A stretch of 64,000 nt of DNA from an uncultured Bacteroides sp. (GTDB lineage: Bacteria; Bacteroidota; Bacteroidia; Bacteroidales; Bacteroidaceae): NCBI RefSeq assembly GCF_963677715.1, contig NZ_OY782495.1:62001-126000 (forward strand). Reading direction: 5' to 3'. Below are positions 2,569 to 41,089 of this stretch, in pieces; the first letter of the stretch is position 1, and each line of letters opens with the position of its first letter. The translations under genes were made by a program, and so were the position numbers. Under the pieces are notes generated by a model that was given only the letters and a program-made list of their open reading frames with translations, had not been told where the DNA came from and did not search any database.

Positions 2569-3234
2569 TCATTTACGGAAATAGCCTCTTATCTTATTAT
2601 AGGCCTCACTATAGAGCTCGGCATCTTTGTCTTTTAGCGGATAGCTTTTGGCCGCAAGTATCGGAATTACTTTGACCGGATGATTCTTGGCATCGTAAAT
2701 GTTACCGCAAATGTTTCTGAATACTTTTCCGTCGACCGGTTGATAGTAAGGCTCTTCTATCGATTCCAAGCCTTTGCGGCGTGGTTGGGCACCATTCACA
2801 AAAGCTTCATCATCCCCATAAAATCCAAGTTTCTGTAGCCAATAGTTTGTCTGTAAAGACATGGTGAGCACACATTCAATGGTCGGGTATTGTTCTAACA
2901 GCCATTCGATATGCGATAATCCTTTGATGGCCTTTTCTTCCGGAATAAGCACCCTTTTTCCTTTGGGAGCAGGGGTTACATAGTCATTGCACAGATTAGT
3001 AATATACATTTCGGCGGGATTGACGCTATTAAGAGTGACGAAGGTGAGGTGATTGAATAAGTTGCGCGCTTCTACATTGCGGCTGCGTTCACCGTGATCT
3101 TCGGGGAAACTGCGAAAATAATAGTCGGCAAACATGGCCACTTCGGTTGCCGTGTCCGACCATTGCAGGTTCGAATCTTCGCCTATTACTAATAATCTTG
3201 CCGGTTCAGCTGGTTTTAAGTCTTTTGATCTCAT
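2569..3234 (-). CDS. Conserved protein, possibly uracil-DNA-glycosylase-like fold
   Basis: A 221-residue soluble protein without signal peptide or membrane segments. I do not recognise it firmly. The N-terminal LLVIGEDSNLQWS followed by NPAEMYITNLCN is reminiscent of the GEDP and N-L motifs of the uracil-DNA glycosylase superfamily, and the C-terminal part (RNICGNIYDAKNHPVKVIPI) could correspond to the region holding the second motif, but the canonical catalytic residues are not clear. It stands alone, with a TATCTTTG box at 3278-3271 upstream and a strong hairpin downstream. It diverges from the carbonic anhydrase gene. Treat the fold assignment as a guess. Confidence 0.5.
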   Translation of the reverse strand: MRSKDLKPAEPARLLVIGEDSNLQWSDTATEVAMFADYYFRSFPEDHGERSRNVEARNLFNHLTFVTLNSVNPAEMYITNLCNDYVTPAPKGKRVLIPEEKAIKGLSHIEWLLEQYPTIECVLTMSLQTNYWLQKLGFYGDDEAFVNGAQPRRKGLESIEEPYYQPVDGKVFRNICGNIYDAKNHPVKVIPILAAKSYPLKDKDAELYSEAYNKIRGYFRK

Positions 3235-3371
3235 ATCTTGTTTTTAATTGATGCCATTGGCTACTCGGTGCAAAGATACGCTTTTATCTCATCAAACATT
3301 TCTATTTAATTTATTGTTTTACTTTCCAGTCAGAGCAAACTTGTTTACTTACACTTTAAAAGATTGAAAAT

Positions 3372-4040
3372 ATGCAATCGGAATCTTTAAACGAAATGCT
3401 CGCAAATACGGTTTTAACCGAAGAACAACGAGCAAAATTGTCGCCTACAGATATATTAGACCTTTTAAAAAAAGGGAATAAAGACTTTACGGAAGATAAC
3501 TTAACCGTCAGAAACAATACGCAAAGAGTACGCGATGCGGCGATAGGGCAATACCCTTTGGCAGTGGTACTTTCGTGCCTGGACTCGAGAGTCCCGGTCG
3601 AAGATGTTTTTCATCGGGGCATTGGTGACTTGTTTGTAGCCAGAGTAGCCGGTAATATTGTAAATGATGATATTCTGGGTAGCCTTGAATATGCGTGTAA
3701 AATATCGGGGGCTAAGCTGATACTCGTATTAGGTCACGAATATTGCGGTGCCATCCAGTCTGCCATTGACGATGTGAAGCTGGGTAACATCACTACTTTA
3801 TTATCAAAAATACAACCAGCCGTAAAAGCCGCTTCAGAAGGCTTTAAAGGTGAACGTTCCTTTTCCAATTCCGAATTTGCTGATCTTGTTTGTGAGCATA
3901 ATATAAAGCTGTCAATCAATCAAATACGAAAAATGAGTCCTATCCTTAGAGAAATGGAAGAGCAAGAGCAGATCCTCATTGTTGGTAGCATGTATGACAT
4001 GAAAACCGGAGAGGTGCATTTCTTGAAAGATAATAGATGA
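3372..4040 (+). CDS. Beta-class carbonic anhydrase
   Basis: 222 residues, interconverting CO2 and bicarbonate in the cytoplasm. The zinc site of the beta class is complete: Cys69 and Asp71-Arg73 in the CLDSR motif, then His122 and Cys125 in GHEYCGA. The C-terminal MKTGEVHFL strand is also typical of the plant-like subgroup. The start ATG at 3372 gives a normal N-terminus; no signal peptide is seen, unlike some periplasmic relatives. Monocistronic: the next thing downstream is a decayed gene on the other strand. Confidence 0.92.
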   Translation: MQSESLNEMLANTVLTEEQRAKLSPTDILDLLKKGNKDFTEDNLTVRNNTQRVRDAAIGQYPLAVVLSCLDSRVPVEDVFHRGIGDLFVARVAGNIVNDDILGSLEYACKISGAKLILVLGHEYCGAIQSAIDDVKLGNITTLLSKIQPAVKAASEGFKGERSFSNSEFADLVCEHNIKLSINQIRKMSPILREMEEQEQILIVGSMYDMKTGEVHFLKDNR

Positions 4041-4047
4041 GTCATAA

Positions 4048-4410
4048 CTATACTATCCATTCATCGGCTTTAGAAGCATAATCCTGTATATCGTTAATAA
4101 GTTTGCTGGTATGGTAACCGTCGGCAACGGCATGGTTCACAAATACGGCTAGGGGAATGAGTACTTTATCCTGTTCGGAAAAGTATTTACCAAAACGAAT
4201 TAAAGGGAAAAGTAAGTCGGAAACTTCGTAGGTATCTTGTGCAAAGCCGGTGAAGCTTAGCCATGGTATGGAGGAGACGGAACAGAAGTTGGCCGGTTGG
4301 TTTGGGCGAGCCTTTATCTCTTTTACTGTTTTATATTGTTCAATGTCGTGAATAACGGCATTATAAAACTGATTTGAAATTTGGTTTTCATAATTATATT
4401 TGTTCTTTAT
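4048..4410 (-). pseudogene. Remnant of type A chloramphenicol acetyltransferase (C-terminal part only)
   Basis: The minus strand from 4410 to the stop at 4048 is open and encodes about 120 residues resembling the C-terminal half of CAT-A enzymes: SSIPWLSFTGF, then LIPLAVFVNHAVADGYH close to the end. The catalytic histidine region (HHxxxDG in intact enzymes) reads NHAVADG, keeping the second, catalytic His and the Asp-Gly. Upstream the frame meets TAG at 4411-4413 and there is no in-frame start, so roughly the first 100 residues are missing. It is tail-to-tail with the carbonic anhydrase gene, 7 bp from its stop. Probably an old deletion remnant. Confidence 0.75.
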
Positions 4411-4588
4411 CTATTCAAAGATACGCGTTTTTCTAACCACTAATATACGGATTTTGGTCGTATTTGTCTTTATACAACGAGTGATATTCCATTTGACTGA
4501 TCTTAATTTATGATACTTTTTGTTATTAGTTAGCTGCATAATGTTTAAAAATCTCTTTTGTGTGTGTGCTTTTGTGCAATATTATATT

Positions 4589-4596
4589 TATCTTTG
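4589..4596 (+). promoter_or_regulatory. -7 box (TATCTTTG) for the TPR regulator gene
   Basis: TATCTTTG lies 20 bp upstream of the ATG at 4617 and fits TAnnTTTG. No good -33 TTTG is seen at the right spacing. Confidence 0.5.
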
Positions 4597-4616
4597 TGAT
4601 GAAAAGATAAAGAATT

Positions 4617-6362
4617 ATGAAAAAATACGCAAAACTACTATTTATACTATATTGTTTATTTTGTCTCTGTTCTTGTAAAGATCGCTACTCTCCTCCTGTT
4701 TTAGCCACAGTAGATAGCCTCACTTACATCAATCCGGATAGTGCCATCGTTCTTTTAAGTTCAATAAAGGAGGATATGTCCCGTGAGCCGGAATCCACCC
4801 AGATGTATTATCACCTTTTGCAGATAAAAGCTAGAGACAAAGCCTATATTCCCCATACTTCGGATAGCATCATACTCTCTATTGTGCATTATTACGAAAA
4901 TCATACACATAAAGCACATCTTATGGAAGCCTATTACTTTGCCGGACGCGTTTACCGTGATCTCGGAGATTCCCCGCAGGCATTGAGCTATTTTCAGAAA
5001 GCAGCCGATGCGTCCAAAGAGAATACGGATTACAGGGCCGTTAGCCGGATATATAGCCAGATAGGAGAACTTTGCCTTTATCAGGATATATACGATGATG
5101 CACTCGCTGCATACAGAAATGCTTATCACTACAATGTATTGGCAAAAGACAGTGCCGGGCTTGTTTTTAGTTTGCGGGATCTTGGCTGCAATTATACGGG
5201 GCTTAATAATGCCGATAGTTCCCTATATTACTACAAAGCTGCTTATGCTTTAGCAGAAAGGCTCAATAATCATCGCTTAATGAATATTCTTCATGTAGAT
5301 TTAGCTGGACTTTACGTTCAACTAAAAAAATATAATGAAGCAAAAGAGGCTTTAAAACTTCCTGTTAATAACCGAAATAGAACCGATTTGAGTGCAATAT
5401 ATTCTATTTTTTCTAAACTATATTATCAGATCGGAAATATGGATTCTGCATTCTATTATTCGCATCGTATCATAGAAGATTGTGGAACCATTTATGCCAA
5501 GCAGTCTGCTCACTGGATATTGGCACAGATCGCAGAAAAAAAGGGGGATAGTTCAACCGTAATGGAGCAGATTAAGGAATATGCGGCATGTTCCGATTCA
5601 ATACAAAGGATGACTAATTCTGAGGTTATCGGGAAAATGCAATCGCTTTACAATTATCAGTTGCGTGAAAAAGAAAACCATCAATTGAGGGCGGAAAATG
5701 AGGAACAGCAACTTTGGATCGGTTATATCGTTTTTTTTCTTATTGTTATAATCGCTCTTGTTGTTATTTATATACAATATAACAAACGTAGAAAAGATAA
5801 GCTGAAAGAACAATTGACAAAATTGGAGCGGTTTAAGGAAGAACAATATCAGAAAAGCTCCCAATTCATAGAAGAGAATAAAGAACGAATCAAAAAACTG
5901 GAAGAAAAGTTGCAGGCTGCCCAAGAAGAAGGAGGTATTCGTCTCGCTTTGCTGCAAGCCCAACAAGAACAATACTTGCAGATTAACAGTAAGGTCGAAA
6001 TAGATAAACGCGCACAAGAACTTGCCGAAACGGCTTTTCTGCAATCTTCCATCTATAAACAAATCCATCAACTGGCAGGCGGTAACGGTACAATGACGAA
6101 TGTTGATTGGGAAAAACTGACCAAAGCTATCGATGGAACGTATGATGGCTTTACTTCCCGCCTCTATGCACTCCATTCTTTTAGTTCTATTGAACTGAAA
6201 ATTTGCCTATTGCTCAAGGCAAAAATTTCAGTTACTGGCATAGCTTTTATTACCGGCCGGTCAAAATCGGCCATTACTTCTGCACGAAAGAAAATGTATG
6301 AGAAAGTATATGGTGAAGCAGGTAAACCAGAGCAATGGGACGCCTTTATTGAACCGTTCTAA
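4617..6362 (+). CDS. TPR membrane sensor with coiled coil and C-terminal LuxR-like HTH
   Basis: 581 residues. An N-terminal lipoprotein-type signal ends at Cys20 (LCSC). Residues about 100-330 form tetratricopeptide repeats that would sit outside the cytoplasm; one membrane helix spans about 366-388; a charged coiled coil follows (about 390-440); the last 60 residues (ELKICLLLKAKISVTGIAFITGR and following) look like a LuxR/GerE-type helix-turn-helix. This is a one-piece sensor-regulator family common in Bacteroidetes: an extracytoplasmic signal changes a cytoplasmic DNA-binding domain. It opens the peptide natural-product island and is followed directly by five phased direct repeats at 6370-6424 that are candidate binding sites. 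Target genes are inferred from position only. Confidence 0.8.
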   Translation: MKKYAKLLFILYCLFCLCSCKDRYSPPVLATVDSLTYINPDSAIVLLSSIKEDMSREPESTQMYYHLLQIKARDKAYIPHTSDSIILSIVHYYENHTHKAHLMEAYYFAGRVYRDLGDSPQALSYFQKAADASKENTDYRAVSRIYSQIGELCLYQDIYDDALAAYRNAYHYNVLAKDSAGLVFSLRDLGCNYTGLNNADSSLYYYKAAYALAERLNNHRLMNILHVDLAGLYVQLKKYNEAKEALKLPVNNRNRTDLSAIYSIFSKLYYQIGNMDSAFYYSHRIIEDCGTIYAKQSAHWILAQIAEKKGDSSTVMEQIKEYAACSDSIQRMTNSEVIGKMQSLYNYQLREKENHQLRAENEEQQLWIGYIVFFLIVIIALVVIYIQYNKRRKDKLKEQLTKLERFKEEQYQKSSQFIEENKERIKKLEEKLQAAQEEGGIRLALLQAQQEQYLQINSKVEIDKRAQELAETAFLQSSIYKQIHQLAGGNGTMTNVDWEKLTKAIDGTYDGFTSRLYALHSFSSIELKICLLLKAKISVTGIAFITGRSKSAITSARKKMYEKVYGEAGKPEQWDAFIEPF

Positions 6363-6369
6363 TATAAAA

Positions 6370-6424
6370 CCGTACAAAAACCGTATAAAAGTTATAAAAA
6401 CCGCACAAAAACCGCACAAAAAAA
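6370..6424 (+). repeat. Five phased 10-11 bp direct repeats, candidate activator site
   Basis: Units CCGTACAAAAA, CCGTATAAAA, GTTATAAAAA, CCGCACAAAAA and CCGCACAAAAAAA follow each other at 6370, 6381, 6391, 6401 and 6412. The 10-11 bp period puts each unit on the same DNA face. They end 24 bp before the TAAGTTTG promoter box of the DUF3244 gene, where a -33 element should be but is not evident. The obvious candidate binder is the HTH protein encoded just upstream. Binding is inference. Confidence 0.55.
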
Positions 6425-6448
6425 TAGCTATTCAGAGAAAAAGTGTCC

Positions 6449-6456
6449 TAAGTTTG
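6449..6456 (+). promoter_or_regulatory. -7 box (TAAGTTTG) for the DUF3244 gene and possibly the precursor
   Basis: TAAGTTTG matches TAnnTTTG and lies 32 bp upstream of the ATG at 6489. The -33 region lacks TTTG, consistent with a promoter that needs an activator bound at the repeats immediately upstream. Confidence 0.55.
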
Positions 6457-6488
6457 TATGCATAATAATAATAATAAAATGATTTATT

Positions 6489-6854
6489 ATGAAACACTTA
6501 TTATTGGGATGTTTTTTTGTATTATTCTGCATTAATGCTTTTGCTGAAGAAGTGAATATTGATCTTGAAAAAGATAATCAGACAACAAGCACTCGTTCCT
6601 TAACCGTAGATCCTACTGTTACTCATGATGGAAATATCGTGTATATTTATTATTCCGATTATTTATTAGCAAATCTTCAAATTACCGTTAAGGATTTATC
6701 GGGAAATGCTGTGTATTCAAATACGGTTAGTGTATCCTGTAATCAACCTTATTCTTTTGTTTTAAATAATGTGGAGAATGGAGACTATGAAATAGAATTA
6801 AGCTACGGGAATATGTTATTATATGGCTATTTTTTAATTGAGATGATTGCCTAA
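6489..6854 (+). CDS. Small secreted DUF3244-family protein
   Basis: 121 residues with a clear signal peptide (cleavage near INAFA-EE, residue 19). The mature part is a single beta-sandwich-like module: RSLTVDPTVTHDGN, then NLQITVKDLSGNAVYSNTV and NGDYEIELSYGNMLLYGYF. This layout (RSL near the mature N-terminus, 'v.vkd..G..vys..v', final 'g..lyG.F.i') is that of DUF3244, a secreted family common in Bacteroides and often next to TPR/HTH regulators. Function is unknown. It lies between the regulator and the peptide precursor and is preceded by its own promoter and repeats. Confidence 0.75.
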   Translation: MKHLLLGCFFVLFCINAFAEEVNIDLEKDNQTTSTRSLTVDPTVTHDGNIVYIYYSDYLLANLQITVKDLSGNAVYSNTVSVSCNQPYSFVLNNVENGDYEIELSYGNMLLYGYFLIEMIA

Positions 6855-7030
6855 AAAAACAGGTAATATAAATTAGAAAAATAGAAATAAATAGAGTTTA
6901 ATATGTTACGATATTATTTCCTTACTGATTTTTAATGTTAGAATATATACTTATACAGTCCCTATCTGTATAATTAGGGAGCAGATGCCCAAAAGCTAAT
7001 AGAGTAGGCGAAATTTAAAAACAAATTACT

Positions 7031-7219
7031 ATGGTAACAAATGGTCAGTTTGTAATGTTAGAGAAGGGTGAAATTTTAGATGATTTATCCCTCGATATGA
7101 TTATCGGAGGAATAGATGATAAATTCACTCAACCAGGTGAATGCGATTTCTGCAATACTTGTGGAACTAGCAATAACTCGAGTAATGGCGATATGAGCCA
7201 ATCTATCTCTTTGGGTTAA
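7031..7219 (+). CDS. Double-glycine leader peptide precursor (RiPP/bacteriocin-like)
   Basis: 62 residues. The first 27 form a leader ending LSLDMIIGG, with acidic and hydrophobic residues spaced as in double-glycine leaders cut by C39 peptidases. Cleavage after Gly27 would release a 35-residue core beginning IDDKFTQPGE, holding three cysteines as C-x2-C-x2-C (C38, C41, C44) and a Ser/Asn/Gly-rich tail. This resembles the Bacteroidales 'GG natural product precursor' type (TIGR04149-like). The next gene is a radical SAM maturase and an ABC exporter with a C39 domain lies in the same run, so modification and leader-coupled export are expected. Modification chemistry is unknown. A terminator-like hairpin directly follows. 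Confidence 0.8.
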   Translation: MVTNGQFVMLEKGEILDDLSLDMIIGGIDDKFTQPGECDFCNTCGTSNNSSNGDMSQSISLG

Positions 7220-7230
7220 TCTGTAAATGA

Positions 7231-7266
7231 GATTGTGTTAATAAATAGCATTAACACAATCTTTTT
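7231..7266 (+). terminator. Hairpin terminator/attenuator after the precursor gene
   Basis: GATTGTGTTAAT (7231-7242) pairs perfectly with ATTAACACAATC (7250-7261), a 12-bp stem with a 7-nt loop, followed by TTTTT. It sits between the precursor stop and the maturase start, so it would let the precursor mRNA be more abundant than the enzyme mRNA. Confidence 0.8.
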
Positions 7267-7312
7267 ACATTGCATTATTTAGGAACTTATCTATAATATA
7301 TAACTATTTATA

Positions 7313-8668
7313 ATGGTAAACTTAGTAGTGTCTCTATACACACATTTCTTTCGAATGCATGACAATATTTGTCTATTATATAACAGTGAAAGCAATAGTT
7401 TTTTCAAAGTCTCAGAAGAGATTTTTGATTATATAGAAAAAATAGCTGAAGGTAAATATACTTCAATAAATCAAGAAACCAAAGAACTTCTAATAAAGCA
7501 TAATATTATTATCCCAGAAAACAAGAAATATTCATATTATAATAGAGTAAAGTTAATGAATTGCATGGATAGGTTTTACTCTAGCAAGTTAACCTTAAAC
7601 ATTATTCCGACTACTTGCTGTAATTTTTCTTGTTCTTACTGTTTTGAAAAAAATAAAACTAACTATACAATAACGGATGACATTATTGATAGTCTTATTC
7701 CATTTATAAATAAAAACGAAAGAATTAAAAAGCTAAGCCTAATGTGGTATGGAGGTGAACCGCTATTAGCATTTGGTAAAATCAAGCAGATCTTATCGCG
7801 GTTTGATAATGAAGTTCAGATTCCTATTGGCAGTCACTCTATTATTACTAATGGGTACTTGTTTGATCAAAAGGTAGTTGATTTTTTTAAGATACATCCA
7901 TTGACAGAAATTCAAATAACATTAGATGGAAATGAAAATGAACATAATCAAAAAAGATTCACGAGAACTGATAAGCATACGTTTAGTAAGATAATAAATA
8001 ATATTGATTTAATCTTAAACGAATTACCAAACACGCATGTGTTTATTCGTATCAATATTGATGAAAGTAATAAAACATCTTTTCAGTCTTTATATGAGCA
8101 ATTATATAAACGATGGGATGGAAAACGTTTTTCTATATATCCAGGATTTATCAGAATTGAAAATGCCCAGGAGACGCAAATGATCTCTCCATCAATTTTT
8201 GGTGACTCTCGTAGAAATTTCTTTCTAAGTCTCGAAGAAAAAGGTATAGAAGTAGATTTTTATCCAACAATTAGGGAAAAAGCATGTAGTGCTGTTAGAA
8301 TGAATTCTTACATTATTGGTCCAGAAGGAGAAATTTATAAATGTTGGAATGACGTTAGCAATAAAAATAAGATTATAGGATATATTAATAATAAAAAGTT
8401 AACAAATGTTGATTTACTGGCTAAATATATGGTAGATAGTACTATATTTGAAGATGCGAAATGTAGAGAATGCTTTTTTTTCCCTATTTGTGGTGGCGGA
8501 TGTCCACAATATAGGATACAAAATAAATATGAGAATGGTAATTATGATTTATGTGCCGTTCGAAATGATAAAAAGGATGATAAGCAATACCTAACTTTCT
8601 GTCTAGAAAAGCATTATCACAAGATTAAAGGCACAGAACAATCTATTATGATTCAAAACGATTTGTAA
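7313..8668 (+). CDS. Radical SAM/SPASM peptide maturase
   Basis: 451 residues. Residues about 1-95 form an N-terminal domain that may bind the precursor leader (RRE-like, not certain). The radical SAM cluster motif is C103-x3-C107-x2-C110 (CNFSCSYC), followed by MWYGGEPLL as expected for the GGEP motif that contacts SAM. The C-terminus is a SPASM domain: CSAVRMNSYIIGPEGEIYKC and CRECFFFPICGGGCP, ending with a last Cys in DLCAV, providing auxiliary iron-sulfur ligands. Such enzymes cut hydrogen from a peptide residue and make thioether or carbon-carbon crosslinks. The substrate is almost surely the upstream 62-residue precursor. The gene is visibly AT-rich compared with the flanking chromosome. 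Confidence 0.9.
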   Translation: MVNLVVSLYTHFFRMHDNICLLYNSESNSFFKVSEEIFDYIEKIAEGKYTSINQETKELLIKHNIIIPENKKYSYYNRVKLMNCMDRFYSSKLTLNIIPTTCCNFSCSYCFEKNKTNYTITDDIIDSLIPFINKNERIKKLSLMWYGGEPLLAFGKIKQILSRFDNEVQIPIGSHSIITNGYLFDQKVVDFFKIHPLTEIQITLDGNENEHNQKRFTRTDKHTFSKIINNIDLILNELPNTHVFIRINIDESNKTSFQSLYEQLYKRWDGKRFSIYPGFIRIENAQETQMISPSIFGDSRRNFFLSLEEKGIEVDFYPTIREKACSAVRMNSYIIGPEGEIYKCWNDVSNKNKIIGYINNKKLTNVDLLAKYMVDSTIFEDAKCRECFFFPICGGGCPQYRIQNKYENGNYDLCAVRNDKKDDKQYLTFCLEKHYHKIKGTEQSIMIQNDL

Positions 8669-8711
8669 TATATTAGTATAGTGAAAGTATTAAAAAGTGA
8701 ATAAAAAGAAA

Positions 8712-11030
8712 ATGGAGAAAAGGATCAGTATCTTAATATACATTTTGTCATTTGTTCCTATTTGTTTGAGAGCTCAATCTCTGGCTATTAAAGGCACAAT
8801 TCTAAGTAAAGAGAATAAGCCTATAGAGGCTGCAAATGTATATATTATGGATATGGACTCCACTATAATTACGGGGGGAAGCACTAATTCAATGGGTTTT
8901 TTTAATATTGAGCTACCATCAAAAGGTGATTATATCCTTTCGGCCAATTTTCTGGGATATCTAAAGCAAGAGCTGTTTTTAAAGGGAGTGGAGAAATCTA
9001 CAAATATCGGCAAACTATTTTTAAGTGAAGCAAATAAAATGCTTGATGAAGTAGTTGTTACTGCAAAATCTCAAATAAACCAATCGGATAAAACACTTTT
9101 GTTTCCAACCGAACTTCAGAAAAAGCATTCTACCGATGGTTTCAGCTTACTCAATAATCTAATGATTCCTCAACTGGATGTAGATGTATTGAAAAAGAAT
9201 GTTTCTTCTAAAGGAAAACCGGTGACCCTCTTGCTTAACGGCAGGCCCATTACCGACAATAGTGAAATTACAGCTCTCCGCCCCAAAGACATAATACGAA
9301 TAGAATACCATGAAATGCCAACCGGGGCTTTTGCTGAATATGAAAGTGTAATAAATTATATTACCCGCCAATATGAATTCGGTGGATACATAGGTATTAA
9401 TGGAACACAACAAACAACTTATGGCGAGGGAGATTATTTGGTTATAAGCCGTATTAATTACAAAGAAAACGAACATACGCTTGGGTATAATTTAGATTTT
9501 CTACACGATGACAAAATCCATAGAGAAGTCTCAGAATTATTCACTTATCCCAATAATGATGTTTTGTATAGGACAGAAAACAGCCAACCATCTATTGAGA
9601 AGAATCATACCCATCACATTTTCTATAATTACAATTTCAGAAATAAGCAAACTCAGATCAACATTAAACTTGGATATAAAAAATATGATTCAGATGAAGA
9701 TTTCAATTCATTGTTAAATTATAAAGGAACGGTTGAACAATCTCTAAAACTATCGAACGTCAGTAGTGAGAAGCAAAACAATCCTTATTTCTCTTTTTAT
9801 ACTGATTTAAAATTGAAGAAGCAACAATCTTTATATATTCGTGGAAGCATTGATTATTCAAGAAATCATTATAAATACGCTTATGAAGAAGAGAAAGAAA
9901 ATTCTGTTCCAAGTTCATTGTATACAAACGCAACGGAGGACTATTATTCTACCATATTGGGAGCAATATATACCAAAACATTCTCAAAAGGAAGAGAACT
10001 CTCGTTGAATCTACGTAATTATATTCATATATCTAAGAGCATTTACAATAATGGCAATGACATAAACAAGGAACATTTTACCACAAACGAGTCACTGTAT
10101 TCGCTCAACTTATCTAAAAAGTGGAAAAAGATGTTTCTGTCTGTTCGATTAGGTATGAGTTCTCTCTTCTATTTTCAGAAAGATGAAAGGGATAAAAAGT
10201 TTTGGTCATATAGGCCTGAAATGACTTTTCGTTATATTTTCAATGAAAGAAGCACATTTCAGTATAGAGGAGGACTAAATAATTCATTCCCAACATTATC
10301 GCTATTTACAAATACAGAACAAAATATTGACTTTATACAGAAAAAAGTCGGCAATCCATCTTTAAAAATAGTAGAAATCATCAGTAATCAATTATCTTAT
10401 TCATATACTTCTAAACAGTTTAATCTGAATTTGTTTTTTAATTATTTCCATAGCGAGCCTAATACGGGTAAACAAGTTATATATGATGGCACCTATTTCG
10501 TACATTCTTATATCAATAACGGTGGCTATAATTTGATCAATCCTGAATTGGGCGTAAGTGTTAAGTTATGGAGCAATCTGCTGAACTTCAAAATTAGTGG
10601 AGGGCTTTATCGGTATATCATAACAGGAGATAATAATATTTATAAAAATGATTGGTATATCAATCCCTCTTTAATGGTGTTCTATAAAAAGTTCAATTCC
10701 AATTTATATTACTACTCATCCCGAAAAGGAGTGTACGATAGTTTGGACCAATGGACAAGCGATAACCGATATGGGTTAACGGTTTCCTACAATACCGGAG
10801 GTTTATCGCTTGGCATCGGAACTCAAAATCCGTTTTCGACTTACCGTCGAACAAACAAAATAAATCTCAATATTTACTCATCACATAGCTTATCAAACAA
10901 CCAACAGAATGACCATCTGTTTTATATAAAAGTTGCTTATAATATAGACTTTGGACGCAAACATAAATATACTGAAATAAATGCCAGGAAAGGCACAAAT
11001 TCTGCTATCATGAAAAACACCAAAGAATAG
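8712..11030 (+). CDS. Outer-membrane beta-barrel protein with carboxypeptidase-regulatory-like N-domain
   Basis: About 772 residues. A GTG at 8697 is possible, but the ATG at 8712 gives a cleaner signal peptide (IYILSFVPICLRA-QS). Residues about 25-110 are a CarboxypepD-regulatory-like domain (IKGTILSKENKPIEAANVYI), then a reduced plug-like segment (LLLNGRPITDN) and a barrel of many aromatic beta strands, matching the OMP_b-brl_3 group of TonB-receptor relatives. No nutrient-binding partner lies next to it; instead it sits between the maturase and the peptidase-ABC exporter. It could be the outer-membrane pore for the modified peptide or its uptake/immunity receptor. AT-rich like the maturase gene. 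Confidence 0.8.
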   Translation: MEKRISILIYILSFVPICLRAQSLAIKGTILSKENKPIEAANVYIMDMDSTIITGGSTNSMGFFNIELPSKGDYILSANFLGYLKQELFLKGVEKSTNIGKLFLSEANKMLDEVVVTAKSQINQSDKTLLFPTELQKKHSTDGFSLLNNLMIPQLDVDVLKKNVSSKGKPVTLLLNGRPITDNSEITALRPKDIIRIEYHEMPTGAFAEYESVINYITRQYEFGGYIGINGTQQTTYGEGDYLVISRINYKENEHTLGYNLDFLHDDKIHREVSELFTYPNNDVLYRTENSQPSIEKNHTHHIFYNYNFRNKQTQINIKLGYKKYDSDEDFNSLLNYKGTVEQSLKLSNVSSEKQNNPYFSFYTDLKLKKQQSLYIRGSIDYSRNHYKYAYEEEKENSVPSSLYTNATEDYYSTILGAIYTKTFSKGRELSLNLRNYIHISKSIYNNGNDINKEHFTTNESLYSLNLSKKWKKMFLSVRLGMSSLFYFQKDERDKKFWSYRPEMTFRYIFNERSTFQYRGGLNNSFPTLSLFTNTEQNIDFIQKKVGNPSLKIVEIISNQLSYSYTSKQFNLNLFFNYFHSEPNTGKQVIYDGTYFVHSYINNGGYNLINPELGVSVKLWSNLLNFKISGGLYRYIITGDNNIYKNDWYINPSLMVFYKKFNSNLYYYSSRKGVYDSLDQWTSDNRYGLTVSYNTGGLSLGIGTQNPFSTYRRTNKINLNIYSSHSLSNNQQNDHLFYIKVAYNIDFGRKHKYTEINARKGTNSAIMKNTKE

Positions 11031-11037
11031 ATAAATC

Positions 11038-13260
11038 ATGAATAGGATGCGTAAGGATACGGCGAGGTTTCCTATATACAGGCAACATGACACTATGCAA
11101 TGTGGCGTGGTGTGTCTTCTAATGATATGTGAGCATTTTGGGCGAAAATATTCAATTGAATTTCTCTCGCGTTACTGTTTTGCCACTGCTGAAGGTGTGT
11201 CCCTACTTGGTATCAATGAAGCTGCAAATAAACTAGGCTTACACACCATCTGTGGACGAGTAACCGCGGAACAACTATCTGAAGCTCTCTTACCTTGCAT
11301 TCTTCACTGGAACCAGAACCATTTTGTTGTCCTATATAAAATAAAGGGGAAAGGGGCAAAAACTATATTTTACATTGCAGACCCGGGAAAAGGTTTATTA
11401 AAATATTCTCTTAATGATTTTAAAGAACATTGGATCAGTACCCAATCTAATAGAGAAGAAAAAGGTATTGCCATGTTTCTTCAACCAACTCCTATTTTCT
11501 ACAAAAAGGAGGGAGAAGGCAAAAGAGAAAAGCGTTCTTTTAGCTTTCTGTTTGGTTACGTCGGACAATATCGACGGTATTTCGGACAAGTAGTAATAGG
11601 CTTGCTAATTGGCAGCTTGTTACAACTTATTTTCCCATTTCTTACTCAAGCTATCGTCGATATTGGTATTACCCACCAAAACATTGGCTTCATTTATTTA
11701 ATTCTTGTAGGACAGTTGATGCTAACCCTTAGCCGGACATCCGTAGACTTTATCCGCCGATGGATAGTACTGCATATCAGCATGCGTATCAACATATCGC
11801 TCGTATCGGATTTCTTTATTAAATTGTTGAAACTACCGATGTCTTTCTTCGATACCAAACTGCTGGGAGACTTGATGCAGCGCATGAACGATCATAACCG
11901 GGTGGAAAAGTTCCTTACCACACAGATCTTGAGTGTAATGTTTTCTTTTTTAAGTTTCATCGTTTTTGGTATTGTTTTGTTATGGTATAACTTGTCCATA
12001 TTTGGCATATTCCTTTTGGGAAGCATTTGCTATGCCTTATGGATTGCTTTGTTTCTCAAAAGACGAAAACAGATTGATTATCTTTATTTTGAGAGTCAGG
12101 CAAAGAATAACAACAAAACTTATCAGTTCATCACTGCCATGCAGGAGATAAAGCTACAGGATTGCGAAGAACGTCGGCGATGGGAATGGGAGGATGTGCA
12201 GGCAGAACTTTTTGAAACCAACATGAAAAGCCTGAAATTGCAGCAGATGCAGGAAGCGGGAAGCATTTTTATCAATGAAATTAAAAATATAGTCATCACC
12301 GTTTTGGCAGCCACAGCTGTTATTAACGGCAGTATGACACTGGGTATGATGTTGGCTGTACAATACATTATAGGGCAACTGAACAGTCCTATTGAACAGT
12401 TAATGAGTTTTATCTATTCACTGCAAGATGTGAAGATTAGTTTGGAGCGTATCAATGAGATACATGAAATGGAGAATGAAGAGAGTAATTCAAATTCTTT
12501 GATGCAATTCCATGATAAGGATAGAAGTCTTCATCTTCAATATGTCGATTTCAAGTATGATCCGCATGGCCCGCATAAGATTCTGGACTGTGTAAACTTT
12601 ACCATACCCGAAGGTAAAGTGACTGCTATTGTAGGAACTAGCGGAAGTGGAAAAACAACTATTATTAAGTTACTGTTAGGTTATTATCATGTTTTGGGAG
12701 GTAAAATAAGCATCGGGCAAACGTCTTTGAATGAATATAATATGAAGTGGTGGCGCAGGCAATGCGGAGTGGTAATGCAAGATGGAGTGATTTTCTCGGA
12801 ATCCATTGCCCGCAACATCGCTGTGGACGACGGAGAGATTGACCAAGGAAAGTTAGTGGCGGCGGCACGGGTAGCCAATATAGAGGAATACATCATGCGA
12901 TTACCCTTAAAGTATAATACGCTTATCGGGCGAGATGGAGTCGGATTAAGTCAGGGGCAAAAACAGAGAATATTGATAGCACGGGCTGTATACAAAAATC
13001 CCCAATATATTTTTCTGGATGAAGCGACAAATGCATTGGATGCCAATAATGAACGGTCCATTGTGGAAAATCTGGCGGACTTCTACAAAGGAAAGACCGT
13101 AGTTATCGTAGCGCATAGACTTAGTACTGTAAAAAATGCAGATCAAATCGTAGTCATAGACAAAGGGCAGATTGTAGAAACAGGGCATCATAGCGAATTA
13201 ATAAATGCAAAAGGGGCTTATTACAGGTTGGTTAAAAATCAGTTAGAATTAGGTAGCTAA
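11038..13260 (+). CDS. Peptidase-containing ABC exporter (C39 peptidase + TM + ATPase)
   Basis: 740 residues in the standard bacteriocin-exporter order. N-terminal C39 peptidase: Gln16, catalytic Cys22 (QHDTMQCGVVC), His95 (NQNHFVVLY) and Asp115 (YIADPGKG) are all present, so it should cut double-glycine leaders. Residues about 170-460 carry six membrane segments. The ATPase has Walker A GTSGSGKTT, signature LSQGQ, Walker B YIFLDEATNALD and an H-loop IVAHRLST. It would remove the leader of the 62-residue precursor while exporting the core. The start is 8 bp after the barrel gene stop; the membrane-fusion protein follows after 11 bp. Confidence 0.93.
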   Translation: MNRMRKDTARFPIYRQHDTMQCGVVCLLMICEHFGRKYSIEFLSRYCFATAEGVSLLGINEAANKLGLHTICGRVTAEQLSEALLPCILHWNQNHFVVLYKIKGKGAKTIFYIADPGKGLLKYSLNDFKEHWISTQSNREEKGIAMFLQPTPIFYKKEGEGKREKRSFSFLFGYVGQYRRYFGQVVIGLLIGSLLQLIFPFLTQAIVDIGITHQNIGFIYLILVGQLMLTLSRTSVDFIRRWIVLHISMRINISLVSDFFIKLLKLPMSFFDTKLLGDLMQRMNDHNRVEKFLTTQILSVMFSFLSFIVFGIVLLWYNLSIFGIFLLGSICYALWIALFLKRRKQIDYLYFESQAKNNNKTYQFITAMQEIKLQDCEERRRWEWEDVQAELFETNMKSLKLQQMQEAGSIFINEIKNIVITVLAATAVINGSMTLGMMLAVQYIIGQLNSPIEQLMSFIYSLQDVKISLERINEIHEMENEESNSNSLMQFHDKDRSLHLQYVDFKYDPHGPHKILDCVNFTIPEGKVTAIVGTSGSGKTTIIKLLLGYYHVLGGKISIGQTSLNEYNMKWWRRQCGVVMQDGVIFSESIARNIAVDDGEIDQGKLVAAARVANIEEYIMRLPLKYNTLIGRDGVGLSQGQKQRILIARAVYKNPQYIFLDEATNALDANNERSIVENLADFYKGKTVVIVAHRLSTVKNADQIVVIDKGQIVETGHHSELINAKGAYYRLVKNQLELGS

Positions 13261-13271
13261 AAAGGTGCATT

Positions 13272-13745
13272 ATGGAAAAAATAGAGCTCAGAAGTGAGAA
13301 TGTACGTAAGATAATAGGAAAAATACCACCGGTACTTATAAGGAGTGGAATAAGTATTATTGCACTTATATTAGTATTATTAATGGTAGCAGCTGCATTT
13401 ATTCCTTATCCTGAAGTGCTTGAAGGAAAAATTATCATTACCGGAATTGATTCTAAAGAAGCCTATGCAAAAGGAGAACTATCCTACTCTCACATAACAC
13501 AAGTAAAACCCGGAATGAAAGTGGAAATAGAACTGGAGGGATATGATACCCAGAAGTATGGTTATCAACATGGAGTGATAACCGGCATTTCTCAAAAAGT
13601 GATTACCAAAAGGGAACGAAATTTATTTTCATTTGTTGTCACAATACAAAGTAGTTCTATCATAGAAAAAGGCATGAAAGGGAGAGTTTCTGTTATTTTA
13701 TCAAATAAAACATTACTGAGAAAGATACTGGATAAGAAGGAGTAA
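13272..13745 (+). CDS. Minimal HlyD-like membrane-fusion protein
   Basis: 157 residues, about a third of a usual HlyD/MFP. One membrane helix (about 24-46, ISIIALILVLLMVAAAFIPYPEV) is followed at once by a short beta-rich part (EGKIIITG, ITQVKPGMKVEIELEGY, GVITGISQKVI, IEKGMKGRVSVIL) that matches the membrane-proximal and barrel modules at the two ends of MFPs. The long alpha-helical hairpin and lipoyl halves that normally lie between them are absent. It follows the ABC exporter by 11 bp and presumably is its periplasmic adaptor. Whether it is functional without a hairpin is open; the clean ends suggest a natural short form rather than a broken gene. Confidence 0.75.
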   Translation: MEKIELRSENVRKIIGKIPPVLIRSGISIIALILVLLMVAAAFIPYPEVLEGKIIITGIDSKEAYAKGELSYSHITQVKPGMKVEIELEGYDTQKYGYQHGVITGISQKVITKRERNLFSFVVTIQSSSIIEKGMKGRVSVILSNKTLLRKILDKKE

Positions 13746-13779
13746 ATCAATAGTTTTTTTAAGTTCAAAAATGGCATTA

Positions 13780-13822
13780 TGGACTAGCTTAACTTTATGT
13801 CTTCATTTGCTTGGCTAGTCCA
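13780..13822 (+). terminator. Stem-loop between exporter operon and second barrel gene
   Basis: TGGACTAGC (13780-13788) pairs with GCTAGTCCA (13814-13822), 9 bp with a 25-nt loop, followed by the T-rich CTTTATTCTATAA. It may end the exporter transcript in part; the long loop weakens the call. Confidence 0.4.
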
Positions 13823-13844
13823 CTTTATTCTATAATATATATAA

Positions 13845-16160
13845 ATGAAACAGTACATAACACTATCTCTTTTTTCGATTCTATCGATCTTTTCTGCTGG
13901 AGCACAGCAAATCAAAGGAAGAGTCATTGACGGAGTAACTTCTGAGCCTTTGCCTTTTGCCAACATTTTAGTAGTGAATAAAGATTCTTCGGCGGTATCT
14001 GTCGGAACAGTGACGGATATGGATGGCAACTTTTTACTTGTGTCTAAAAAGGAAAAAGAGGCTGTCCGTATAAGTTATTTGGGGTATCTGAGCAAAGATA
14101 CGGTTATCGTAAGAAATGAACTTAACAAAATTACACTTGCGCAGGATGCAAAGATGCTGGGAGAAGTTGTTGTGAAGGGAGTGCGGAATCATTTTAAGAT
14201 GGAAAACGGAGGTATTGCCATGGATGTGGCAAGCAGCCCGTTAAAAAATATTGGTACGGCCAATGATGTGTTGGAGAAGCTGCCTTTTGTGGTGAAAGAA
14301 GGAGATGCATTTACTGTGCTAGGCAAGGGGAAACCTTTGATTTATATTAATAATCGTCTTGTAAGAAACGAGAATGAGCTGGAAAGGCTGGCTTCTGGAA
14401 ACATCAAAAAGGTGACTGTGATTACTAATCCGGGGCCCGAATACGATGCAACTGTTAGTGCTGTGATCCGTATTGAGGCAATACGCCCTCCGGGTGAGGG
14501 GTTGGGCGGGGAACTGTTGGGAGGGATAAAAGCGGCCAGACTGCTTTCTGCCAACGGAAGCCTTGACCTGAATTATCGCAAAAACAAACTGGATCTATTT
14601 GCCTATTACGGGTATACCGATGACAGGCGAAAAGTGAAAATGAAATGGGAGCAGAGCCTGAAATCCGACAGTCGGACAACGGGCATAAATAGCGGGGACA
14701 AAGAGAGGAGCGGCCGCAGAGAACATTATGTGGAAACCGGACTCAATTATGAGTTCAATGAACATCATTCGGCGGGCGTTCAATATACATACGACGGCAC
14801 TCCTTATGCGAGAGTGAACATGGGGATGCAGAGCGAAATGTACATTAACGATGCACTTTCCGAAGAATTTCCGACAACAGCTTTGGTAAACATTGACCGG
14901 AACTCTCATTTGCTGAATACTTACTATGTAGGCGACTTGTTCAGCTGGCTAAAAGCCCAGCTTGATTTTGATTATGCCAAGGGAAACAATGAGACCCTTC
15001 AGAATTCATGGTCGGGACGAGAGACTGATGAAAATGTGAATACCAAATCCCTACAGAATTACCATCTTTACGCCGGCAAACTCAGCCTGATCACTCCTTT
15101 GCGGAAAGGCGAACTCAAGTACGGAACGGAATTCAGCCGAACGACCAATGAGCAGAATTATATCGTCATTGATAATGAGGGAGCCGAAGACCTGACTTCA
15201 AATACAAATCTCTCCAGGCAGAAGATGTTTGCTGCATTTGCCAATTACTCCAACACTATCGGGAAATGGACATTGGGTGCAGGCGTACGTTTTGAAAATA
15301 CCGGCTTCGATTATTTTGAGGACGGAACTAAGATGGATGGGCAGAGCCGTACTTATACGGATTTTTTCCCAAATGCTTCTGTGAGCTATCGTACCGAAAG
15401 GATACAAATGATGTTGGGCTATCGTTCTACTATCGAACGCCCAAGCTATTACCAGCTCAGGAATAGTGTACAATATGACAATCCATATACTTACGAAGCC
15501 GGGAACCCGTATTTGAAACCGACAAGAATAGATGATATCACCTATACGTTGCTGTGGGGGAAGATAAAGGTTATGGCTGCTTACAAGCTGTACGATAACT
15601 TCTCATTACTGCTGCCGGGGCAATACGAAGATAAAGATATTATTATGTTCCGCCCCGAGAATTTGAAAAACGTACGCAACTTATCGGCATTCGGCTATTA
15701 TTCTCCGCACTTCGGAATATGGGAACCTGTAGCGGGTATCGGGATATTGAAAGATATTCTCAGCTATGGGGAAATAGTAAACCGGAGCTACGAAAAGCCC
15801 TATTTACGCTATAGTCTGAAAAACACACTTCGTTTGCCTGCCGGATTTACGGTAATGATAGATTTTCAGGGAAATTCGAAGGGACATTCAAGTCTGGATT
15901 ATATGTATGATAATTTCAGAATGGACATGCAGGTAACGAAGACATTTATGAATGATAAGCTTGTGCTGAATATGAAAGGAACGGATATTACTGGCTCATA
16001 CCGGCAAAAATACCTGATGGATGTATATCCGGTTACGTCATTCATTAACAAGGATCTCGATAGCCGCTCGTTTCAGCTCTCAATCCGATATAAATTCAAT
16101 GCTTCAAGAAGCAAATACAAAGGAACTTCGGCTTCCGAGGAAGAAAGACAGCGTATGTAA
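13845..16160 (+). CDS. Second TonB-receptor-like outer-membrane barrel of the peptide island
   Basis: 771 residues with signal peptide (FSILSIFSAGA-QQ), a CarboxypepD-regulatory-like domain (QIKGRVIDGVTSEPLPFANI), a plug-like domain (NDVLEKLPFVV, GKGKPLIYINNRLV, NIKKVTVITNPG) and a C-terminal barrel ending RSFQLSIRYKFNA. It belongs to the same OMP_b-brl_3 type as the 8712 gene but shares little direct identity by eye and is clearly richer in G+C. Ordinary TonB receptors import; here the context of a peptide exporter suggests a role in crossing the outer membrane, or import of the product. It is the last gene of the island. Confidence 0.8.
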   Translation: MKQYITLSLFSILSIFSAGAQQIKGRVIDGVTSEPLPFANILVVNKDSSAVSVGTVTDMDGNFLLVSKKEKEAVRISYLGYLSKDTVIVRNELNKITLAQDAKMLGEVVVKGVRNHFKMENGGIAMDVASSPLKNIGTANDVLEKLPFVVKEGDAFTVLGKGKPLIYINNRLVRNENELERLASGNIKKVTVITNPGPEYDATVSAVIRIEAIRPPGEGLGGELLGGIKAARLLSANGSLDLNYRKNKLDLFAYYGYTDDRRKVKMKWEQSLKSDSRTTGINSGDKERSGRREHYVETGLNYEFNEHHSAGVQYTYDGTPYARVNMGMQSEMYINDALSEEFPTTALVNIDRNSHLLNTYYVGDLFSWLKAQLDFDYAKGNNETLQNSWSGRETDENVNTKSLQNYHLYAGKLSLITPLRKGELKYGTEFSRTTNEQNYIVIDNEGAEDLTSNTNLSRQKMFAAFANYSNTIGKWTLGAGVRFENTGFDYFEDGTKMDGQSRTYTDFFPNASVSYRTERIQMMLGYRSTIERPSYYQLRNSVQYDNPYTYEAGNPYLKPTRIDDITYTLLWGKIKVMAAYKLYDNFSLLLPGQYEDKDIIMFRPENLKNVRNLSAFGYYSPHFGIWEPVAGIGILKDILSYGEIVNRSYEKPYLRYSLKNTLRLPAGFTVMIDFQGNSKGHSSLDYMYDNFRMDMQVTKTFMNDKLVLNMKGTDITGSYRQKYLMDVYPVTSFINKDLDSRSFQLSIRYKFNASRSKYKGTSASEEERQRM

Positions 16161-16186
16161 TTTCTCCTGAGAAATATTTTATTTTA

Positions 16187-16307
16187 TCTTCCATCTTCCA
16201 CCTTTTAACTGTAAGTAATTAATAGTCAGCACAATAATAGGTGGAAGATGCGCTTTTTTAGCCGATTTATCTTCCACCTTTATCTTCCATCTTCCACCCG
16301 GTGGAAG
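16187..16307. repeat. Cluster of ATCTTCCACC repeats in both orientations
   Basis: ATCTTCC/ATCTTCCACC units occur at about 16187-16202, 16269-16278 and 16282-16298, and the reverse complement GGTGGAAGAT at 16240-16249 and, truncated, 16300-16307. A further GGTGGAAGAT is at 19307-19316, past the VapE-like gene. The motif thus brackets the HU/VapE gene pair. Function unknown. Confidence 0.7.
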
Positions 16308-16309
16308 GC

Positions 16310-16918
16310 TTATTTTTCTGTAACTGTTCGCACGAAAAGAAGTTGATTTCCACGACCTATCCGCTCTATAACTCCCTGATTTACAAATAGATTGAGGTCG
16401 TTGAGCGCCTTGTTCTTTAACCGGCCGGTGATGTTGGTATAGGCCGTGCGGGTGATAAATGCGTTTTTATCAAGATACTGTTCCAACCTCTTTTTACGTT
16501 CGGCCTCGCTCAGTGCGGATGAAGAGCGGAAACCGTATTTGCTTACGCGTTCCACGAATCCGCGGGTGTGCTTTTTGAACCAGGCGGAAGCACGGAAGTT
16601 CACATTGTCGAAGTAGATAGAGTTTGAACGGATCTCTTTTTTATCCATTACGGGACGAGCTTTGAGCTTGGCCGAAAAATAGCCGATGTTGCCAAGTTCC
16701 ACATGATACCCGTCTACCAGGTAGTTGGATATCTTTTCGGTCAGTGCGCTGAGCACTCCTTCCAGATCTCCCACCGTGAAGGTGGAGGCTTCCGAAATTT
16801 CTTCCAATAACCGGCGGGTGCGGATGGTGCCGCTCGACACAATACGTGGGTGAAGGGGTTGTTTTTTACCGTCGCCGCTCGGGTTTGGGTTCTCTCTGAA
16901 ATCATACATTGCTGCCAT
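16310..16918 (-). CDS. HU-family (HU-HIG type) DNA-binding protein
   Basis: 202 residues. The N-terminal half (HPRIVSSGTIRTRRLLEEI, LEGVLSALTEKISNYLVDGYHVELGNIGYFSAKLKARPV) is the extended HU-like DNA-binding module found in Bacteroidetes; the C-terminal half (LEQYLDKNAFITRTAYTNIT, DLNLFVNQGVIERIGRGNQLLF) looks like a winged-helix module. It faces away from the VapE-like gene across a 296-bp region, a pairing seen repeatedly in Bacteroides. Its 3' end runs into the ATCTTCCACC repeats. Probably nucleoid- or element-associated; exact role unknown. Confidence 0.8.
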   Translation of the reverse strand: MAAMYDFRENPNPSGDGKKQPLHPRIVSSGTIRTRRLLEEISEASTFTVGDLEGVLSALTEKISNYLVDGYHVELGNIGYFSAKLKARPVMDKKEIRSNSIYFDNVNFRASAWFKKHTRGFVERVSKYGFRSSSALSEAERKKRLEQYLDKNAFITRTAYTNITGRLKNKALNDLNLFVNQGVIERIGRGNQLLFVRTVTEK

Positions 16919-17155
16919 AGTAATTCTCTTTAATTTGTATATTAATGTTTTTATAGGTAATCGGCGCGTGGGTTCTCATATCTAAACCGATGGGTTTACG
17001 TCTGAAAACCGATGATCCTGCTTATGTAAAACGATCGGCATGCATATGCGGGCTCACTTCCACTAGGCTTTAAAGATACTTAATTATGGCGTTAACTCCA
17101 AATAGAATGTGTACTATTATGCGTAGAAAAAGGTCTGTTTTATTGCCTGTAATTA

Positions 17156-17187
17156 TTTGCATTTTATTGTCGGAAATAGTATATTTG
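17156..17187 (+). promoter_or_regulatory. Full promoter for the VapE/BT4734-like gene
   Basis: TTTG (17156-17159), 20 bp, then TATATTTG (17180-17187): an exact Bacteroidetes -33/-7 arrangement, 27 bp upstream of the ATG at 17215. Two copies of AAACCGATG (near 16985 and 17008) lie further upstream; their role is unknown. Confidence 0.75.
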
Positions 17188-17214
17188 TACATCAATAAAA
17201 AATGAAACGGAAGA

Positions 17215-41015: not shown

Positions 41016-41089
41016 GCCTCTTTAGCTCAGTTGGCCAGAGCACGTGATTTGTAATCTCGGGGTCGTTGGTTCGAATCCGACAAGAGGCT
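41016..41089 (+). tRNA. tRNA-Thr (TGT)
   Basis: 74 nt. Acceptor GCCTCTT/AAGAGGC, D-arm GCTC/GAGC, anticodon loop TTTGTAA with anticodon TGT, T-arm GTTGG/CCGAC around TTCGAAT. The anticodon stem CGTGA/TCTCG has one T-T mismatch. CCA is not encoded. Probably transcribed with the RNA just upstream and ended by the hairpin at 41092. Confidence 0.95.

Follow-up and report, generated by a model that had tools for sequence, protein, structure and literature searches.

How peptides of Bacteroidales cross the outer membrane is treated as an open question in passages of two papers (PMC6671954, PMC10352776), and it is raised again by an island of genes at positions 4617 to 16160 of the window, by which we mean the whole 64,000-nucleotide stretch analysed here (contig C3, 62,001-126,000, in a genome of 3.9 Mb). 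Judged from its sequence, this Bacteroides-type genome carries a self-contained gene set for making, modifying and exporting one small cysteine-bearing peptide, a predicted ribosomally synthesised and post-translationally modified peptide (RiPP). The export parts suggest an outer-membrane route other than TolC, and we give about an even chance to the exit being one of the island's own outer-membrane barrels, the main rival being that the barrels are receptors.

The island is one case of a recurrent Bacteroidales cassette, made up of a precursor with a double-glycine (GG) leader, a radical S-adenosylmethionine (SAM) enzyme with a SPASM domain, a TonB-receptor-type barrel, an exporter with a C39 peptidase and often a mini membrane fusion protein (MFP), in an order (precursor, maturase, barrel, exporter, mini MFP) that is kept in relatives from several Bacteroidales families. 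That peptide, maturase and exporter form one conserved unit, as the preliminary description of this DNA proposed, is upheld by the relatives' loci and by the precursor and maturase alignments.

The peptide and its maturase

The precursor begins MVTN, its leader (M1 to G27) ends in IIGG, and its core of 35 residues contains CDFCNTCGTSNNSSNG, in which cysteines 38, 41 and 44 stand as CDFCNTC (CxxCxxC spacing); the calculated mass of the unmodified core is 3671.48 Da. Among 28 aligned precursors, selected for their precursor-like look, none departs from the second glycine (G27) or the third cysteine (C44), and the conservation of G26 and C38 is at least 90%. The family TIGR04149, to which the precursor was to be compared, had to be rejected for it: no NCBIfam model, TIGR04149 included, matched the window precursor at E≤1, though 12 of its 28 relatives match TIGR04149 at that threshold (best 3.3e-5). 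The picture of a compact, one-precursor island fits the window but not all relatives, three of which (L038, L045 and L047) have two. Elsewhere, locus L138 (oriented 3428-3691) has a precursor-like open reading frame (ORF) upstream of a radical SAM gene, in which a GG leader is followed by four near-repeats of GCGCxCGxGAG.

The maturase has the CxxxCxxC motif and the seven-cysteine SPASM domain of SPASM maturases in general, with CNFSCSYC at 103-110 and further cysteines at 325, 344, 384, 387, 393, 397 and 414, and it passes the general domain models (PF04055, 56.1 bits against a cut-off of 29.5; TIGR04085 for SPASM, 57.6 against 27). Placement in a SPASM subfamily, also called for earlier, did not follow: among the matches listed, 25 of 52 families, no maturase-family model reaches its cut-off, the best scores being those of Clo7bot (187.4 against 600), TIGR04463 (187.3 against 525), CefB (179.6 against 600) and PapB (124.5 against 340). 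A sequence search of the PDB returned six weak matches, the best to ChlB (3.1e-6). All 27 aligned maturases keep EIYKCWND and the seven SPASM cysteines without change.

A scan of named genomes with the maturase gave 30 loci at 29-44% identity, 29 of them under Bacteroidales-type names and one (L064) from an Acidobacteria metagenome-assembled genome. In 21 of these 30 relatives, a small ORF with a GG leader and a Cys-Cys-Cys/Asn pattern lies on the same strand at most 3 kb upstream from the maturase gene, compared with 0 of 30 on the opposite strand and 2 of 30 on the downstream side, for a pattern drawn up post hoc with the sequences already known. The co-occurrence of precursor and maturase, on which the preliminary description had staked its reading, exceeds chance. 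Furthermore, when the cysteine spacing of the core was assigned by hand as a label to 24 rows of the maturase tree, the labels required 6 changes, a number that none of 500 shuffles reached (minimum 10, mean 14.6). The labels CxCxC, double CxC and 'other' are each confined to one side of a branch, CC..C is not, and the window is the lone CxxCxxC branch. Core cysteine spacing tracks the maturase, which is enzyme-substrate coevolution, and the family with its co-varying CxC, CC..C and CxxCxxC cores offers a natural substrate series for enzymology. A passage of PMC8939145 states that the thioethers made by SPASM enzymes as a rule connect Cys with Asn, Thr or Asp. This makes the Asn that is conserved behind the last core Cys a natural candidate for a link, and by this analogy a thioether may form there.

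The export parts

C39 exporters cut GG leaders and carry the core across the inner membrane. The island's exporter has all the parts of a peptidase-containing ABC transporter (PCAT), namely the C39 Cys-His-Asp residues with their Gln (Q16, C22, H95 and D115, read from the sequence), a transmembrane domain and an ATPase, with scores of 102.4 bits against 22 for PF03412 (C39), 104.7 against 28 for PF00664 and 103.8 against 25 for PF00005. The 157-residue protein encoded next to it aligns to both ends of full-length MFPs while reference residues 94-288 are missing (7 mini and 15 full-length proteins aligned). Its model has a transmembrane helix and a beta domain without a hairpin (pLDDT 77, pTM 0.59), with MacA as the nearest fold (89 columns at 2.2 A). 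Set against the HlyD type of MFP, the transmembrane and beta parts are present and the helical hairpin segment is absent, and the TIGR01843 score is 31.3 bits against a cut-off of 208.65. PDB sequence searches with this protein and with the island's DUF3244 protein returned nothing meaningful. Mini MFPs of 155-230 residues are found in the loci of many relatives.

The first of two barrels, outer-membrane protein 1 (OMP1), is modelled as a large barrel with a plug-like and a CarboxypepD domain (pLDDT 81.8, pTM 0.73), and by model and Foldseek it has the barrel-and-plug fold of TonB-dependent transporters, although no Pfam plug or barrel model matched. A TonB-box-like LDEVVV lies at residues 116-121, where L116, E118 and V121 are at least 90% conserved in 27 rows and the strict pattern is present in 17 of the 27. 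The "unusual export set" of the preliminary description is therefore confirmed and sharpened, to a fusion protein without its helical hairpin and a barrel of TonB-receptor fold.

To relate these parts we took a census of exporters, in which 93 distinct PCATs were present in the fetched loci and the 84 with room on both sides were counted (L053 and L072 were dropped for want of room). An MFP below 270 residues was classed as mini, and a barrel was counted if on the same strand and at most 4 kb from the PCAT. A barrel was present at 0 of 29 exporters adjoining a full-length MFP, at 24 of 30 with a mini MFP (19 directly upstream) and at 17 of 25 where no MFP was found. In the subset of Bacteroidaceae found by C39 hit only (58 PCATs in 60 regions), the counts were 0 of 26, 11 of 17 and 7 of 15, giving a Fisher value of 2.2e-6 for mini against full on rows that are related by descent. 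Forty PCATs that we chose outside this family but within the phylum gave 0 of 32 for full MFPs, 2 of 8 without an MFP and no mini-only locus; L253, with a 192-residue hit besides a full MFP, was classed as full. On the exporter tree, barrel presence changes at least 11 times. On the question of exit or receptor, the census association leans to exit, with exceptions that are weighed below.

Layout and regulation of the island

The island's genes are intact and co-directional, with short intergenic gaps. On re-checking the reading frames, every part named in the preliminary description proved open and full where it had been placed, and two elements absent from it were added: the DUF3244 gene, and regulatory DNA comprising direct repeats with a promoter-like box and a hairpin 3' of the precursor gene. 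The Bacteroides -7 consensus is TAnnTTTG. The features, with gene order running from sensor to OMP2, are as follows.

4589..4596, + strand: promoter-like box TATCTTTG ahead of the sensor gene, fitting the -7 consensus
4617..6362, + strand: sensor, predicted membrane one-component regulator; tetratricopeptide repeat (TPR) model TPR_12 at 45 bits against 30.1, helix-turn-helix (HTH) and lipobox by eye
6366..6421, + strand: putative operator, repeats of ACCGCAC/ACCGTAC type at 11-nt spacing, from a repeat search
6449..6456, + strand: promoter-like box TAAGTTTG of the DUF3244-to-barrel operon, by the same consensus
6489..6854, + strand: secreted DUF3244 protein, 121 residues; PF11589 at 58.4 bits against 25
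7031..7219, + strand: precursor peptide, 62 residues, leader 1-27 and core 28-62, from ORF and alignment
7229..7263, + strand: hairpin of 14 pairs with T after it, in the gap from precursor to maturase gene, from folding (z -4.3)
7313..8668, + strand: radical SAM/SPASM peptide maturase, 451 residues; PF04055, TIGR04085 and maturase alignment
8697..11030, + strand: OMP1, TonB-receptor-type barrel with GTG start, candidate outer-membrane exit; CarboxypepD domain, TonB-box-like motif and plug, from model and Foldseek
11038..13260, + strand: C39-peptidase ABC exporter (PCAT), 740 residues; PF03412, PF00664 and PF00005
13272..13745, + strand: mini MFP, 157 residues; transmembrane helix and beta domain, helical hairpin lacking
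13845..16160, + strand: OMP2, second barrel and last gene of the island; PF14905 at 189 bits against 27
16283..16308, + strand: weak terminator-like hairpin after OMP2 (12 hairpins in the region against 8.3 expected from shuffles)

The sensor has a signal- or lipobox-like N-terminal end, TPR repeats, one transmembrane segment (about 366-386), a coiled coil and a C-terminal HTH-like end, and scores 103 bits against the BT3442_fam model (cut-off 940). Given the single transmembrane segment, we predict a topology in which the TPR part lies in the periplasm and could control an HTH in the cytoplasm. Between the sensor and the next gene, 26 of 29 sensor loci have a GYRC-core direct repeat spaced by 10-12 nt, nearly always 11, compared with 1.6 expected from dinucleotide shuffles and none in 15 control stretches taken from upstream of the sensor; the pattern was first noticed and then tested. 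We regard these repeats as the putative operator of the sensor family, and they provide a handle on what triggers the island. Past the TAAGTTTG box at 6449, the sole further plus-strand TAnnTTTG in the region 4000-16200 is at 8443, inside the maturase gene. A hairpin with z of -3 or lower lies in the gap between precursor and maturase in 13 of the 21 loci folded, the window among them, and could serve as an attenuator or a processing stop.

Sensors of this family also stand at other kinds of locus, the published BT_3442-BT_3433 cluster (PMC2954219) among them. At L139 a MACPF gene (24.5 bits against 21.5) lies behind one, and others of the six proteins scanned are ordinary, such as a Met-tRNA synthetase; the idea, drawn from gene sizes, that L139, L144 and L154 are alike MACPF clusters was dropped after that scan gave one MACPF among six proteins. 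In the same genome as the island, L133 (G000:C1:499000-515500) has a sensor paralog (51%) with DUF3244, and CRISPR-Cas genes (DevR/Csa2, Cas3) several kb downstream.

Relatives and probable exchange of the interior

Genome G191 matches the window over 4570-6832 (80% DNA identity) and 13822-16161 (85%), so that the edges of homology fall at the sensor promoter, the end of the DUF3244 gene and the OMP2 gene. In the interior just two pieces of the exporter match, and what G191 has there is an exporter with a full MFP, two enzymes of the SPASM type and a different set of precursors and barrels. At E≤1e-150, 10 of the 158 genomes of this genus have a relative of OMP2. Three others than G191's, at 72-77% identity, have upstream of them a different SPASM enzyme in G032, a VKOR-thioredoxin-C39 protein in G349, and peptidases with a barrel in G055. 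These comparisons argue for a peptide and maturase interior that has been exchanged between relatives under a shared sensor/DUF3244 block and OMP2.

The outer flanks differ, and therefore the island does not sit at one fixed site. No empty site could be defined, since orthologs of the left flank (about 2571-4024) in G191, G349, G032 and G177 are without the island and without a colinear right flank; a tRNA-linked insertion was likewise set aside, the window's sole tRNA being at 41016. Direct repeats TTTATCTTCCATCTTCCACC lie immediately 3' of OMP2 (16183-16298), and the right flank (16310-19299) has, by eye, an HU-like gene and a large VirE/primase-like gene, possibly remnants of mobile elements.

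Related loci with other contents were also seen. L146 (2098-10563) runs sensor, DUF3244, GG peptide, Porph_ging, VKOR/C39/thioredoxin protein, barrel, PCAT (78%) and mini MFP, so that the island's kind of back end goes with a front that is not radical SAM. In the island's own genome, L005 (G000:C3:1-20000, at 3709-10795) has a VKOR/thioredoxin/C39 fusion, a 69-residue Gly/Cys-rich peptide, a C39 exporter and a full-length HlyD, and L006 (G000:C4:1-8000, at 2991-6185) is a degenerate island with sensor and DUF3244, a 51-residue C39 fragment and a glycosyltransferase-like gene, near an IstB-like ATPase gene recognised by eye.

Proposed pathway and alternatives

The explanation we favour, and rate as likely to be right as wrong, is that the island is a single regulated operon for the synthesis, modification and secretion of one RiPP, whose core leaves through OMP1 with the mini MFP in place of TolC. 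The membrane-spanning TPR/HTH regulator would sense an envelope signal and act at the 11-nt repeats before DUF3244, and the hairpin after the precursor gene would allow precursor to be made in excess of the enzymes. The SPASM enzyme would then link at least one of C38, C41 and C44 to nearby residues, most likely by thioethers to the Asn/Thr/Ser stretch GTSNN at a loss of 2 Da each. The C39 exporter, as its family does, would cut after G27 and move the 35-residue core over the inner membrane. The core would exit via OMP1, with the mini MFP rather than TolC coupling exporter to barrel, and OMP2 may be a second exit or a receptor for uptake or immunity. The product would most likely act against competing Bacteroidales. 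A competitive role is favoured because the same sensor family heads MACPF-toxin islands and because the peptide cassette appears to be exchanged between relatives; in sum, we read the island as coding for an exchangeable, secreted and probably competitive RiPP.

Several observations weigh against this explanation. No immunity gene was recognised in the island. All 50 PDB entries listed as structural matches to OMP1 are TonB-dependent receptors, that is, importers. Six of the 30 mini-MFP exporters have no barrel nearby, and of 10 independent pairs on the exporter tree 3.1 agree, 0 disagree and 6.9 show no difference (p 0.25), so the link between barrel and mini MFP is not significant after phylogenetic correction, because independent switches are too few; one clade of 33 PCATs, the window's included, holds 30 barrels and no full MFP. 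In L053, L072 and L125 a full MFP adjoins the PCAT with a radical SAM-barrel pair more than 4 kb off, and in L081 the pair is on the other strand; therefore barrels do not go exclusively with mini MFPs. The genome has 33 matches to the TolC-type domain PF02321, none within about 49 kb of the island, but a TolC is nearby in just 4 of 29 full-MFP loci of the census and 0 of 32 from other families. Its absence next to the island therefore proves nothing, and we rejected TolC adjacency as a diagnostic of the exit route. On the side of the peptide, the preliminary description would have yielded to homologues without the GG site or the cysteines: G27 and C44 hold throughout the selected precursors, but the exact core motif is missing in 9 of the 30 maturase relatives. 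Of these nine loci, L057, L060 and L066 have GG, Cys-rich peptides of other spacing, L059, L061 and L062 have GG with other Cys peptides, L050 and L064 have no precursor-like peptide seen near the maturase, and L065 is cut by a contig end. Among more distant radical SAM loci (L067-L084) the motif is found in 5 of 18, one of them a second copy of L038.

Much the same facts can be read with the barrels as receptors, the modified peptide then serving as a signal or metal carrier that leaves by another path (through TolC in trans) and is taken up again or sensed via OMP1 or OMP2. The TonB-box-like motif and plug of OMP1 fit such a role, several of the 50 solved folds listed as closest to it import heme, siderophores or copper, a Cys-rich core could bind metal, and barrels also occur in the full-MFP islands L125, L072 and L053. 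However, this would leave the census split between mini-MFP and full-MFP exporters unexplained, and no siderophore or metal genes were noted in the island, so we think the receptor reading rather unlikely. We are similarly doubtful that the maturase makes no thioether but an epimerisation, C-C bonds or some other change, leaving the cysteines to form disulfides or bind metal: the closest models listed are of mixed chemistries (Clo7bot, TIGR04463, CefB, PapB, geopeptide, DynA), all below cut-off, yet it is the Cys spacing, and not other residues, that is conserved and tracks the maturase tree. That the island is silent or decaying is very improbable; the degenerate sensor-DUF3244-C39 fragment locus in the same genome and the distance of maturase orthologs in the genus (best 43% identity) would suit it, whereas every frame of the island is full-length with conserved active-site residues.

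More broadly, and more tentatively than the pathway itself, the cassette may represent a TolC-free Bacteroidales secretion machine, in which a C39 exporter, a hairpin-less MFP and a TonB-energised outward barrel form a common back end for interchangeable peptide and maturase modules under one regulator family with a shared repeat operator. Front modules on the same kind of back end include SPASM enzymes (the window) and VKOR-thioredoxin-C39 proteins (L127, L146). The association of mini MFP and TonB-type barrel makes the question of exit testable by deletion.

Comparison with known systems

In the open-access PMC literature, the scope of our search, we found no paper describing a mini MFP with a TonB-type barrel. 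Already in print are clusters of radical SAM enzyme, PCAT and outer-membrane protein, PCAT with outer-membrane protein in which no MFP was identified (both PMC10352776), and the prediction, in one sentence of PMC8939145, that TonB-receptor-related proteins mediate graspetide export in Bacteroidetes. The graspetide loci of branch 5 in that paper resemble the island in SPASM enzymes, C39 exporter and HlyD, but as described there they use an ATP-grasp ligase, of which none was identified in the island. TIGR04149 precursors of the CFB group are alike in GG leader and radical SAM context, though the window precursor does not match them, and the PapB, CefB, Clo7bot and TIGR04463 maturases share the radical SAM and SPASM architecture of an enzyme that scores 124-187 bits against their cut-offs of 340-600.

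Bacteroidetocins (passages of PMC6671954) are likewise Bacteroidales GG-leader Cys peptides with a C39 exporter. They are described as needing a thiol oxidoreductase and a transmembrane protein and no radical SAM enzyme, and ORFs and family scans gave no gene for either protein in 4617-16160; their crossing of the outer membrane is left open there, with lysis as a possibility. The BT_3442-BT_3433 cluster, as described in part of PMC2954219, is headed like the island by a TPR sensor and a DUF3244-type Ig-fold protein, but its effectors are MACPF proteins and not a RiPP. An experimental precedent for secretion is Oar of Myxococcus xanthus, which, like OMP1, is a TonB transporter of CarboxypepD domain, plug and barrel (with TonB box and 22 strands) and is required for secretion of the protease PopC; Oar differs in exporting a protein, and the passages of PMC6434023 describe no PCAT or MFP partner.

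The closest likeness is to the Bacteroidales RiPP clusters of Fernandez-Cantos et al. 2023 (PMC10352776), which, in the passages on their composition, share with the island a radical SAM enzyme, a GG-leader precursor, a PCAT and an outer-membrane protein, and of which biosynthetic gene clusters (BGC) 2 and 9 have TPR genes. BGC2 was first thought to be the present cassette, an identification we set aside because the text does not decide it. For BGC6-9, where a PCAT and an outer-membrane protein are reported with no MFP identified, those passages leave the missing MFP open, and, comparing by description, it is this place that a mini MFP of 155-230 residues takes in many of the loci compared here.

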